A DNA stretch of 64,000 nucleotides from Myxacorys almedinensis A (lineage in GTDB: Bacteria > Cyanobacteriota > Cyanobacteriia > Leptolyngbyales > Leptolyngbyaceae): assembly GCF_010091945.1 (NCBI RefSeq), contig NZ_WVIE01000001.1, positions 62,001 through 126,000 of the forward strand, written 5' to 3'. This document shows, one piece after another, positions 5,444 through 9,622 of this stretch. Each line of letters opens with the position of its first letter. The first letter of the stretch is position 1. Made by a program: the position numbers and the translations under genes. The notes under the pieces are model-generated. The model searched no databases and had not been told where the DNA came from. It worked only from the letters and a program-made list of their open reading frames with translations.

Positions 5444-6442
5444 ATGAGCAAATCTCTGCATCATTTTCTTCGCCTTTCTGTTCTTCTGGGACTTACCTTA
5501 GTGATGGTGATAGCTTGTCACAAGCTGCCTGCTCAAAAAGTCCTTGCTCCAAATGGCAAGCTACCAACCTCTGAATGCCGAGTTGTTAAACATGATTTGG
5601 GAGAAACTTGCGTACCACTGAATCCTAAGCGGGTTGTAGTTTTGGGTGCAGAACTAGATGGGTTGGTTGCTCTAGGCGTTAAACCATTTGGCACAACGGC
5701 GGAGATGAAACCTTACCTTAAGCCTTATCTAACTCAGGCTGAAGCTGAAGCGATTAAGTATGTGGGAGTTAAGGAGACAGGTCCCAGTTTAGAAGCGGTG
5801 CTAAGCCTCAAACCTGATTTAATTTTAGAAGTGGCTTGGGGCAATTCACTGACCTACCAACATCTATCGCAGGTTGTACCAATGGTTGTGGTGATCCCTG
5901 AGTCTGATGGGCAATGGAAACCAGCCTTTCTCAAGTTTGCTGAGGCGTTGGGAAAAGAGCAGGAAGCAAAGCAGGTGCTAACCAACTATGATGCTCGATT
6001 GGCAGAGTTCAAAGCTAGAATGGGCGATCGCCTCAATCACGTTAAAATCTCTCTAGTTCGGATTTACCCGAATGGAATTTCCTTTTACCTTAAAACATCA
6101 TTCTCCGGGTCAATCTTGGCAGAGGCAGGACTGAAACGCCCACCAGCGCAAGATAAAGCACCCAGAGGACAAAACCAGGAACAGGTCAACAAGGAACTGA
6201 TTCATGTTTTAGAAAGCGACATGATGTTTGTGTGGACATACGGGCATACCTCAGATATTGCTCGCAGTGCCCAGGTAGCACTCAAACGGTTGCAGTCCGA
6301 TCCGCTTTGGTCAACCCTAGAGGTGGTGCAGCGCAATCAGATCTATGAAGTGCCATCGCTCTACTGGTTCGGAAACGGGCCGATCGCAGCCAATCTAGTT
6401 GTAGATGATCTATTCAAGTACTTTTTAGACCAGCCAGCTTAA
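5444..6442 (+). CDS. Iron-siderophore ABC transporter substrate-binding lipoprotein (FecB/FhuD-like)
   Basis: Periplasmic protein that hands a ferric siderophore to an inner-membrane ABC importer. The frame opens at TTG 5414, four bases after the receptor stop, but ATG 5444 places a normal lipoprotein signal (hydrophobic stretch ending VMVIAC) at the start, giving 332 residues. The mature part has the FecB/BtuF-type fold: GETCVPLNPKRVVVLG, then SLEAVLSLKPDLILE, and a C-terminal NQIYEVPSLYWFGNGP segment. No permease or ATPase gene for this importer is in the window. Its stop overlaps by four bases the end of the convergent Uma2 gene. Confidence 0.9.
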   Translation: MSKSLHHFLRLSVLLGLTLVMVIACHKLPAQKVLAPNGKLPTSECRVVKHDLGETCVPLNPKRVVVLGAELDGLVALGVKPFGTTAEMKPYLKPYLTQAEAEAIKYVGVKETGPSLEAVLSLKPDLILEVAWGNSLTYQHLSQVVPMVVVIPESDGQWKPAFLKFAEALGKEQEAKQVLTNYDARLAEFKARMGDRLNHVKISLVRIYPNGISFYLKTSFSGSILAEAGLKRPPAQDKAPRGQNQEQVNKELIHVLESDMMFVWTYGHTSDIARSAQVALKRLQSDPLWSTLEVVQRNQIYEVPSLYWFGNGPIAANLVVDDLFKYFLDQPA

Positions 6443-7290
6443 CGCTCTAGCGCCGATCGCACTTCCTCCTCTGACAAGCTCAACGCCTCGGCAATCTGGA
6501 CTGGGGTGAGATTGAGCGATCGTAAGCGCCCAACTGCATCCAATCGAGCTTGCCGCTCCTGATCAGCCCGTTCTGCCCCAGTCAAAATCACCTGTCCTTG
6601 AGCATCGCACCAGCGCAACCACAGCCGCGTTACTTCCTCTTCAAATTGCCCTTCCCACAGCGTTAACCCTAGCTCGCTCGTTTCCAACCAGACCGATTGC
6701 CCCACCTGCACAATGCCTACTGCCGAGGTCACTTCCACGTAACGCCCAGATTGCAGCGTCCACACGCGCAGCAATGCGCCATTCATTTCCGCCTCACCCT
6801 GAGTTTGTTGAAGTGGGTCGAAGACAACATAGTACGGCACTCCCACTTGTGCGTAGGTCTCTTTCTTACTCGCGACCTTGCCCTTTTGCCGCGACTTCTG
6901 ACTCAAGCTCAGTTCATCGCCTTCCTGGTTGGAGACAATCTCAACGCAAACATCGGGAACTTTGCCAAACTCCCAAACGAAATAAGAACGATTGCGCCGT
7001 TCGGACAGGTCTTCTGCCCGCTGCACACCCAGACTCAGCAACACATCGGGCACAATCGGGTCGCCCTTGAGTTTGTAGAATAGCCCTACATCAGCTTCGG
7101 CAATGAAGGGTAAGGGAACGGCTCTGGAACTGTAGAGCGCATCGATCAGCAATCGCTGCTGCTGAGCAGACTGAAAGTTGTCCACAGGCGTATCGTCCTC
7201 AATCACCAGGTGGCTGATGTCAAGCTCGGTGACGATTTCTGCACCATCTTGCTCTGCATCCTCTTCTCGGTTGAGCAGTTGTTGAGTCAT
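6439..7290 (-). CDS. Uma2-family (DUF820) putative endonuclease
   Basis: PD-(D/E)xK-fold protein of the Uma2 family, very abundant in cyanobacteria and of unsettled function; some members are tied to mobile DNA. The core elements are present: IVPDVLLSLG, then PDVCVEIVSNQEG, then a KKETYAQVGVPYYVVFDP stretch that supplies the Lys-Tyr of the family. The N-terminal 60 residues are acidic. The C-terminal 50 residues are a charged tail (ADQERQARLDAVGRLRSLNL, then LTPVQIAEALSLSEEEVRSAL) that looks like a small helix-turn-helix, common in this family. It converges on the FecB-like gene with a four-base overlap. Confidence 0.85.
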   Translation of the reverse strand: MTQQLLNREEDAEQDGAEIVTELDISHLVIEDDTPVDNFQSAQQQRLLIDALYSSRAVPLPFIAEADVGLFYKLKGDPIVPDVLLSLGVQRAEDLSERRNRSYFVWEFGKVPDVCVEIVSNQEGDELSLSQKSRQKGKVASKKETYAQVGVPYYVVFDPLQQTQGEAEMNGALLRVWTLQSGRYVEVTSAVGIVQVGQSVWLETSELGLTLWEGQFEEEVTRLWLRWCDAQGQVILTGAERADQERQARLDAVGRLRSLNLTPVQIAEALSLSEEEVRSALER

Positions 7291-7579
7291 GGCGGCGAGG
7301 AGAACTCAGCAGTACGATTATACTCTAGGTTGAGTGCGATCGCACCAACGCCGCTTGGCTTGTAATGGATGAGGCAACCAAGGTATTAATTAAGAATTAT
7401 TTTCAATTGCTAGAGTTCAAAAGCGATGACGATCGCGCTCAACCCCTAAAAATTCCGTTTAGAAGCCAAAAAACTCCCGCTAGGAGCCAAAATCGGCTGA
7501 CACGAGAGTACGCTTTACAATAAGCTGCTGAGCGAGCATTGATGGCTCCAATAGACCCAGGTTTTGAGTTGCTGCTGCT

Positions 7580-7810
7580 ATGCCGATTCCCCTTCAACAA
7601 TACGGAACGCTCTTGGCAGGCTATCTTAAACCGCAGCAAGGGCGCGTGATTAGCTTGGCGATCGCACTGCTCAGCAGCATTGCCTTGCAAATCATCAACC
7701 CGCAAATCTTGGGGTACTTCATCGATACAGCAGTTCAAGGAGGATCACAGCAAGCCTTATTGACTGCAACGATCGCATTACTGACGCAAGCAACTGCGAT
7801 CGCGGCAACA
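7580..7810 (+). pseudogene. 5' fragment of an ABC exporter (permease-ATPase)
   Basis: The first 77 codons read like the N-terminus of a fused ABC exporter half-transporter: LLAGYLKPQQGRVISLAIAL followed by INPQILGYFIDTA, covering the first transmembrane helix and the loop to the second. After ...QATAIAAT the similarity stops. The frame runs on through unrelated sequence and ends inside the tRNA-Val gene at 8023. No other membrane helices, Walker motifs or signature sequence exist downstream. The gene is therefore a truncated remnant about 190 bases from the 3' end of the tRNA. Confidence 0.6.
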
Positions 7811-7996
7811 GAAAAACTCCTTGATTGCTCAAGTTGTTTCTACATGCCTCCTAAGCTTCTAGATCGCGACAACGGTTTGACCAGCTTGCTCGGAAAGGGA
7901 GATGGCGTCTTTATAGCGTTTCGTGGCATTTTAGGGATCTCTCCAAACAGAACCAGCGCCCTGTCAGGAATGCTGAAACTATTGACTTATCAGGAA

Positions 7997-8068
<72 letters not shown>

Positions 8069-8148: not shown

Positions 8149-8188
8149 TTGACAGAATTACCGAAGTTCAATATAGTACTTGTGTACT
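8149..8188 (+). promoter_or_regulatory. Near-consensus promoter with palindromic operator, upstream of the ParM-like gene
   Basis: TTGACA at 8149-8154, exactly 17 bases, then TATAGT at 8172-8177: a strong sigma70-type promoter. The palindrome AGTAC-TTGT-GTACT at 8175-8188 overlaps the -10 and the likely start site, where a repressor would block polymerase. A second small palindrome, CTGGC-T-GCCAG, lies at 8195-8205. The gene starts at 8243 after a GAGGAG ribosome binding site. Autoregulation by the downstream RHH protein is an inference from ParMRC-type plasmid systems. Confidence 0.6.
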
Positions 8189-8242
8189 AACAAACTGGCT
8201 GCCAGGTAACAGAAGCTCTACATAATCCTTGAGGAGAAAGCT

Positions 8243-9295
8243 ATGCCCTTTGGAACTCGACAGACAAGCGTGAGAAAAGATGCGATCGCACTGGGGGGGA
8301 CTTGCCGAACCAATTTTTCGGAAACGGGTAGGACAATTGCTCTCGATGCTGGAAATTATGACCTGAAATTTTGGGACGGCGCAGGGCACCCAAGAGCCAT
8401 TCGATCCGTTAGGTTTCAGCTTCCTCAAGGTCGCGATCCCGTTCGTTACTCGGAGAGTTCTCCTTTAGTAGAGTTGCCTGATGGCTCACGTTACCACTTT
8501 GGCACGCAAGCTTACAAGTACCGCAGGCAGCAGCAAACCGTTGTTGAGAATAAAGTTGAATTAGCTCGCCTGCATTTGTATGCGTGTTTAGAACCAGAGC
8601 GCAAAGAAGAGATTTGTCATTACCCGCTCCAGCTTTATGTTTCGACCCCTGATCTCATGAGAAATGCCGATGCACTGCGATCGCAACTTCTCGGCATTCA
8701 TGAATTTAAACGGAACGGTATTCCCTACCGCGTCACAGTAGATCATGTAGAAGTCGAACGGGAAGGGATTGGTTCCTATCGCTATGCTCAACAGTTGGGG
8801 ATCATTCCTGATAGTGGGTATACGATTGTGATAGATATTGGCGGCGGCACTTGGCTATCCCGCCTGATCGACGCAGAAGGAGACGTGATTGATGAGAACG
8901 TCATGGATCGCGGTGGGTCTTATGAACTGGCGACTGCCATTAGCTTTGATCGCCGCTTGGCAGATCTTCTAGGCACAACGGCTGACCCTGCGATCGTCAT
9001 GGATGGCTTCAAAGCTGGACACACCTATGCCGATACTGGGTTGTCCTGGTCGCTTTGGCTCGAAGAATATCTCGATCCTTGGTTTAAGGGCATTTTTCAA
9101 ACCGTGAAAGCTCAATACACACCCTACATGGCACGAGTGACTCGGTTTTTAGTCACAGGGGGAAGTTCCCATCTGATCTCCGAACGCCTTGCCGGTCGCC
9201 AACTTTTTGCGGTCATGCCCGATCCTCAGTTTGCAAACGTGCGGGGGCTGTTTCCGATCGCGGAGGGACTGCAACTATGTATGACAACAAAGTAA
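8243..9295 (+). CDS. ParM/StbA-like actin-family ATPase
   Basis: Predicted filament-forming actin homologue of the kind that segregates plasmids. Residues 31-42 hold the phosphate-1 motif (TIALDAGNYDLK), about 198-203 the phosphate-2 motif (DIGGGT), and about 304-309 the adenosine motif (VTGGSS), all in the actin-fold order. The length, 350 residues, fits ParM-type proteins, with a 30-residue N-terminal extension. The ATG follows GAGGAG at good spacing. The last 19 bases overlap the next gene, so the two are probably translationally coupled. No replication or partition gene of a plasmid is nearby; flanking genes are chromosomal. Family assignment is good; a segregation role is inferred. Confidence 0.82.
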   Translation: MPFGTRQTSVRKDAIALGGTCRTNFSETGRTIALDAGNYDLKFWDGAGHPRAIRSVRFQLPQGRDPVRYSESSPLVELPDGSRYHFGTQAYKYRRQQQTVVENKVELARLHLYACLEPERKEEICHYPLQLYVSTPDLMRNADALRSQLLGIHEFKRNGIPYRVTVDHVEVEREGIGSYRYAQQLGIIPDSGYTIVIDIGGGTWLSRLIDAEGDVIDENVMDRGGSYELATAISFDRRLADLLGTTADPAIVMDGFKAGHTYADTGLSWSLWLEEYLDPWFKGIFQTVKAQYTPYMARVTRFLVTGGSSHLISERLAGRQLFAVMPDPQFANVRGLFPIAEGLQLCMTTK

Positions 9296-9555
9296 GGCTG
9301 AGCAAAGATGTAATCGACAAGGCAGAACTGATCGCCGCTGAGTGGGGTTTAAAAAATGCCAGGGCAGCGATCGAAGCGGTGTTCCGAAAGTATGCAGATG
9401 ATTATCTGTATGGGCGCATGAATGGAACTGGAATCCCCGGTTCGGCTCAACCTCAACGCGCGATCGATTCGCTTCGCCTTGCTTCGAGAGATCGAGATAG
9501 TCAGTCTGTGTCGTGTGAAGCGCTAGATCAGTTAGATGATTTGTTAGGCATGTGA
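9277..9555 (+). CDS. Ribbon-helix-helix protein, candidate ParR-like partner
   Basis: A 92-residue protein whose first 45 residues look like a strand (DNKVRLSKDV) followed by two helices (KAELIAAEWG and ARAAIEAVFRKYADDYL), the layout of ribbon-helix-helix DNA-binding proteins. The second half (about 50-92) is polar and ends in DQLDDLLGM, a short hydrophobic-acidic tail that could contact a partner. ParR adaptors of plasmid ParMRC systems have this plan: an RHH domain binding centromere repeats and a C-terminal segment binding the filament tip. It starts inside the ParM-like gene, and 13-bp tandem repeats begin 28 bases after its stop. I do not recognise it by sequence; the role is inferred from fold and position. 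Confidence 0.65.
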   Translation: MYDNKVRLSKDVIDKAELIAAEWGLKNARAAIEAVFRKYADDYLYGRMNGTGIPGSAQPQRAIDSLRLASRDRDSQSVSCEALDQLDDLLGM

Positions 9556-9583
9556 GGCGAGCACAGTACGCGATTTTATACCC

Positions 9584-9622
9584 TGTTTGATGCCCTTGTT
9601 TGATGTAGTTGTTTGATGCACT
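9584..9622. repeat. Three tandem 13-bp repeats (iteron-like)
   Basis: TGTTTGATGCCCT, TGTTTGATGTAGT and TGTTTGATGCACT follow each other with no gap; nine to ten positions are invariant. They lie between the RHH gene and the CHASE2 cyclase. They could be a centromere-like binding site for the RHH protein or an operator for the cyclase gene that starts 94 bases further on. Confidence 0.85.

Follow-up and report, generated by a model that had tools for sequence, protein, structure and literature searches.

The window, a stretch of 64,000 nucleotides from Myxacorys almedinensis A, contains two overlapping genes on the forward strand, which the initial annotation had described and which are confirmed here. 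The first (8243-9295) encodes a ParM-like actin-fold ATPase of 350 aa, about 27 N-terminal residues of which are poorly conserved, and shares 19 nt with the second (9277-9555), which encodes a partner protein of 92 aa in which a disordered linker joins a probable ribbon-helix-helix (RHH) domain (residues 1-46) to a helix at the C-terminus. The tail of the partner, CEALDQLDDLLGM (9514-9552, forward strand), carries the conserved motif CEALDxLDxLL and is proposed to be a filament-docking helix. The near-consensus promoter claimed for the pair was likewise found, TTGACA-N17-TATAGT at 8149-8177 on the forward strand, matching the consensus at 11 of 12 positions, and on its -10 element lies the palindrome TAGTAC-TTGT-GTACTA (8174-8189), a conserved candidate operator. 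GAGGAG (8231-8236, forward strand) is, to judge from the sequence, the probable ribosome-binding site of the ParM-like gene. Three degenerate 13-bp repeats with the common 9-mer TGTTTGATG follow the pair at 9584-9622, and upstream of it a tRNA-Val(CAC) gene, apparently an ancestral neighbour of the operon, is located at 7997-8068 on the reverse strand. Beside the tRNA gene, a 147-aa open reading frame (7580-8023), which has no Pfam match, resembles an N-terminal fragment of a membrane transporter and is possibly a gene remnant.

The assignment of the first protein to the ParM-type actins is borne out by its Pfam ALP_N score (28.5 bits, above the cut-off of 26.3), by its retention of the motifs with which the actin/ParM fold binds nucleotide (ALDAGNYDLK, DIGGGTW and TGGSSHL), and by the fold matches of its structure model, which include Ta0583, pSK41 ParM, CorM and Alp7A, as well as PDB 4a62; the models of both proteins are of moderate confidence, with mean pLDDT values of 66 and 70. 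Its nearest relative is the ParM of plasmid pMIC7113.05 from Allocoleopsis franciscana, with 47% identity.

The RHH nature claimed for the partner is upheld only in part. Its model has an unpaired N-terminal segment and helices at residues 10-23, 28-45 and, beyond a disordered linker, 81-90 at the C-terminus, a topology compatible with RHH; the RHH structures NikR, Arc, TacA2 and yiiF are among its fold matches, but every one of them is at E>1 and Pfam gives no RHH family match, so that the RHH fold is likely rather than proven. By sequence, searches against Pfam, NCBIfam and PDB returned chance matches only; no phage relatives were found, nor any plasmid relatives by single-sequence search. 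In the alignment of partners, a near-invariant block, DNKVRLSxDVLEKAxxIAxEWGLKNARAAVEAVFRRY, is followed by a variable linker and then by the CEALDxLDxLL tail. Tails akin to it occur in plasmid-type partners (for example at loci L074, L079, L100 and L101), 11 of 21 of which have the strict motif where 3 are expected. In plasmid R1, the tail of ParR docks on the end of the ParM filament.

Both genes form a conserved orthologous group that has long been chromosomal in many filamentous cyanobacteria. The genome of the window has a single orthologue of the ParM-like gene; full-length orthologues at 69-91% identity are present in 33 of 57-58 relatives, and one more relative has a fragment; over the orthologous group as a whole, identities span about 67-91%. 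Across the class, 71 of 390 sampled genomes have a match at E<=1e-40, and the strong matches are limited to families f1, f4, f13 and f24 of at least 32 families sampled, family names f1-f24 resting on few plasmid-record matches and on named loci. Family f1 is that of the window, Leptolyngbyaceae, and includes Myxacorys, Phormidesmis, Stenomitos and Kovacikia, while f13 includes Leptolyngbya sp. BL0902, which is devoid of the ParM-like gene. The suggestion of a distinct group is supported, and the orthologues form a separate clade in the tree described below. The chromosomal setting is confirmed as well: in complete genomes the pair lies on main chromosomal contigs, and no copy of the ParM-like gene at >=60% identity was found among 72,556 plasmids. 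As to the co-occurrence of the two proteins, the partner was found at every locus with an intact downstream region, in most cases with the 19-nt overlap.

The genes around the pair vary between genomes, and no element genes are conserved there. At 15 of the 58 orthologous loci, deep branches included, the tRNA-Val(CAC) gene has the identical position and orientation, and this constancy suggests that the pair once occupied one ancestral chromosomal position and has been reshuffled since. The tRNA gene was also considered as an integration site. This was rejected because the operon sits on its 5' side, which is not the usual integration side, and the gene is therefore retained merely as a synteny marker.

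The initial annotation had read the locus as the full plan of a ParMRC-type module, completed by three exact 13-bp tandem repeats downstream. The ParM-type actin, the RHH-like partner and the dedicated promoter of this plan survive, whereas its iteron or parC part fails, because the repeats are neither exact nor kept beside any other orthologue. They read TGTTTGATGCCCT, TGTTTGATGTAGT and TGTTTGATGCACT, so that only a 9-mer recurs exactly, in three copies at 13-nt spacing. The array stands out from its surroundings (TRF score 57, with 0.05 to be expected in 64 kb of shuffled sequence), and it was found at none of the other 55 non-redundant orthologous loci, including a 91% identical one from the same genus, the very absence on which the earlier reading had staked itself. 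Nor was any conserved repeat array found upstream or downstream of the orthologues. A centromeric role of the downstream repeats was rejected given that they are specific to this genome, and they are probably not part of the gene-pair system.

The conserved DNA element of the gene pair is instead the promoter palindrome. Among 54 non-redundant orthologue upstream regions, AGTAC-N4-GTACT is perfect in 24 and has one mismatch in another 24, so that 48 of 54 regions have it with at most one mismatch, against 0.6 (and 0.015 perfect boxes) expected from shuffles. In several lineages, two such boxes, 20-39 bp apart, span the promoter. At the equivalent place, plasmid-type relatives of the system have different repeats, inverted or direct, which suggests that the operator changes along with the partner. 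In many orthologues (for example at L050, L067 and L068), a motif approximating TGGGGACAA, absent from the window, directly follows the palindrome. Within the window, AGTACGATTATACT (7311-7324) has one mismatch to AGTAC-N3-TGTACT and precedes a Uma2-family gene (6439-7290, reverse strand) by 21 bp; the same regulator may have a second site there.

Filamentous cyanobacteria are already known to have a chromosomal actin of ParM descent together with a small partner: FcmB and FcmC of N. punctiforme, a system of membrane filaments, are required for rod shape, and their mutants have no visible nucleoid defect (PMC12645912). Our preferred explanation, to which we would give a probability of roughly 0.45, is that the pair described here is an old, chromosomally domesticated filament system of the ParM/ParR type, host cytoskeletal rather than segregating. 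By analogy with CorMR/FcmBC, its present job is most likely the organisation of membranes or of cell shape, because it has no centromere array, resides on chromosomes and has been conserved for long. The unit would derive from a cyanobacterial plasmid lineage, having no centromere array and retaining the promoter palindrome. The first gene would provide a nucleotide-dependent actin-like filament protein, predicted to polymerise, and the second an RHH-type adaptor, the C-terminal amphipathic helix of which would attach to the end of the filament in the manner of ParR on ParM. The RHH domain would probably bind the palindrome and thereby repress its own operon. The cytoskeletal role may have been reached independently of CorMR/FcmBC.

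The main rival on the present function is that the pair still segregates or positions DNA, in which case the palindrome would serve as a minimal centromere bound by the partner, and the filament would move chromosome copies or an unlinked element. The ParM/RHH gene plan, the plasmid ancestry, and the conserved DNA site in the promoter, where the plasmid relatives also have repeats, are in its favor; moreover, the apparently intact DNA-binding half of the partner and the conservation of its putative site, which a DNA-moving system would retain, count against the cytoskeletal reading. At the same time, there are one or two palindromes rather than an iteron array, and neither side of the operon has a conserved repeat array. 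Exact palindromes elsewhere are also few: the window genome has 4 against 4 for a reversed control pattern, and a relative (G022) has 7 against 2. In the CorM/FcmB precedent, segregation has been lost (PMC12645912). Type II ParMRC plasmid modules share with the window pair the actin fold, a probable RHH adaptor with a C-terminal helix and operator-like promoter repeats, whereas the window pair is chromosomal, widely conserved in single copy, and has neither an iteron array nor replication genes. We consider continued segregation unlikely, though by no means negligible.

A different role would follow if the palindrome were a LexA box, placing the operon in the SOS response, with the filament acting after DNA damage, for instance in nucleoid handling or division control. 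The 14-bp palindrome of the window is indeed close to the cyanobacterial LexA operators: AGTACTTGTGTACT agrees with the published consensus AGTACWNWTGTACT (PMC3091678) at 13 of 14 positions, and the pattern RGTACNNNDGTWCB describes 25 of the 48 boxes found at orthologues. In one relative of the window organism, the same motif, AGTACCTTAGTACT at L155 (G022:C1:1247490-1247503), is located 55 bp before the gene of an SbcD-type metallophosphoesterase, and this is a possible LexA site. However, the orthologue boxes depart from the published ones in their spacer and second-half preferences: T stands at position 9 in 45 of the 48 LexA boxes that have been published but in 28 of 48 orthologue boxes (p=7e-5), and a second half of the GTA type, found in 36 of the published 48, is present in every orthologue box. 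The genes beside exact sites in two genomes include no lexA, recA or ssb, and the paired boxes that span the promoter in several lineages also speak against LexA. We consider control by LexA unlikely, though by no means negligible, and prefer autoregulation by the partner, which the palindrome would mediate.

The pair could also be taken for a divergent CorMR/FcmBC itself, with which it shares the plan of a two-gene operon that is chromosomal and conserved among filamentous cyanobacteria and encodes a ParM-derived actin and a small overlapping or adjacent partner (PMC12645912). The actin folds are similar, the two actins have a distant profile similarity (hhalign probability 74%), and the partners of both systems have a short acidic leucine-rich tail. 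In this comparison CorMR is represented by the entry title of PDB 9rmi, the solved filament structure of CorM from Anabaena PCC 7120, and by the CorM sequence. In Nostocaceae, the chromosomal actin-like gene gives a full-length match to CorM (E=2.7e-227), and all 12 Nostocaceae genomes examined have this CorM-type gene, which we infer is also FcmB. No chromosomal orthologue of the window ParM-like gene was found in Nostocaceae genomes. Orthology to FcmB, which similar descriptions and wide chromosomal conservation had brought up, was dropped on this ground, the CorM type being another family. The window protein matches many plasmid-type ParMs at E values of 1e-108 to 1e-18, but the CorM type only at E>=8e-4; with CorM directly there is no match, and the profile gives E=0.026. 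The partner has no detectable homology to the Nostocaceae CorM-type partner (hhalign probability 0.2%), the nucleotide-site motifs of the actins differ, and the promoter palindrome of the window is not common to both systems.

In the maximum-likelihood tree, the window clade (100/97) is separate from the CorM clade (100/100) and groups with the Allocoleopsis plasmid ParM and other plasmid-type proteins, although the deeper joins are uncertain because the branches are long. Among 35 genomes, the window type occurs alone in 12 and the CorM type alone in 16, both types occur in 2 and neither in 5, a complementarity that is significant when kinship is ignored (Fisher p=0.0005) and loses significance inside f13 and f24 combined. 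PatD, tried as a marker of heterocyst formers, gave no discrimination. The two genomes with both types, G145 and G271 of f13 (CorM-type genes at L129 and L133), the latter on one large contig, indicate that the systems can coexist and are not strictly interchangeable. With separate clades, unrelated partners and a largely complementary distribution, the window pair is, as far as these sequence comparisons go, distinct from CorMR/FcmBC, and identity with it is very improbable. The list of FcmB orthologues in PMC12645912 may nevertheless already hold some window-type genes under the name FcmB.

That the pair is a decaying, functionless remnant of an integrated plasmid, for which the plasmid ancestry of the ParM-like family and the adjoining tRNA gene might speak, is extremely improbable, being contradicted by how strongly the two proteins and the promoter are conserved in several families, by surroundings with no conserved element genes, and by the position of the operon relative to the tRNA gene. 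Instead of the integrated plasmid remnant that the initial annotation had contemplated, the locus holds an old single-copy chromosomal pair.

Returning to the domesticated cytoskeletal system that we favor, the comparison raises a broader proposal, which we advance tentatively, its chances being somewhat short of even: filamentous cyanobacteria may have turned plasmid ParM/ParR machinery into host cytoskeletal systems at least twice independently, once as CorMR/FcmBC, present in Nostocales and certain other groups, and once as the window pair, present in Leptolyngbyaceae and further families, each largely taking the place of the other. In the literature and structures examined, CorMR/FcmBC is the sole chromosomal, shape-controlling, ParM-derived cyanobacterial system. 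If the proposal is true, a second, unrelated chromosomal pair with a conserved operator of its own would mean that the reuse of plasmid segregation machinery has recurred, and it would provide a candidate morphology system for those filamentous cyanobacteria that have no CorMR. It would also lend itself to comparing what such machinery loses (the centromere) and what it retains (the docking tail and the operator) on taking over a host role. Outside cyanobacteria, chromosome-encoded ParMs are known from Desulfitobacterium and Clostridium, where a role beyond plasmid segregation was suggested (PMC12270681; PDB 8x1i). These are likewise chromosomal ParM-type actins with a partner gene, kept within their lineage, but they belong to another phylum and are distant relatives of the window protein (profile E=0.18).

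Two observations concern the plasmid-type relatives. One of them, L082 (G160:C115:6973-7914), has two in-frame TGA codons and is probably a pseudogene. In the parM operon of the Allocoleopsis plasmid pMIC7113.05, a perfect 13-bp inverted repeat, AGGAGATTTACCT and AGGTAAATCTCCT, surrounds the -35 region (L074:3864-3896) and is a candidate operator or centromere of this nearest plasmid relative.
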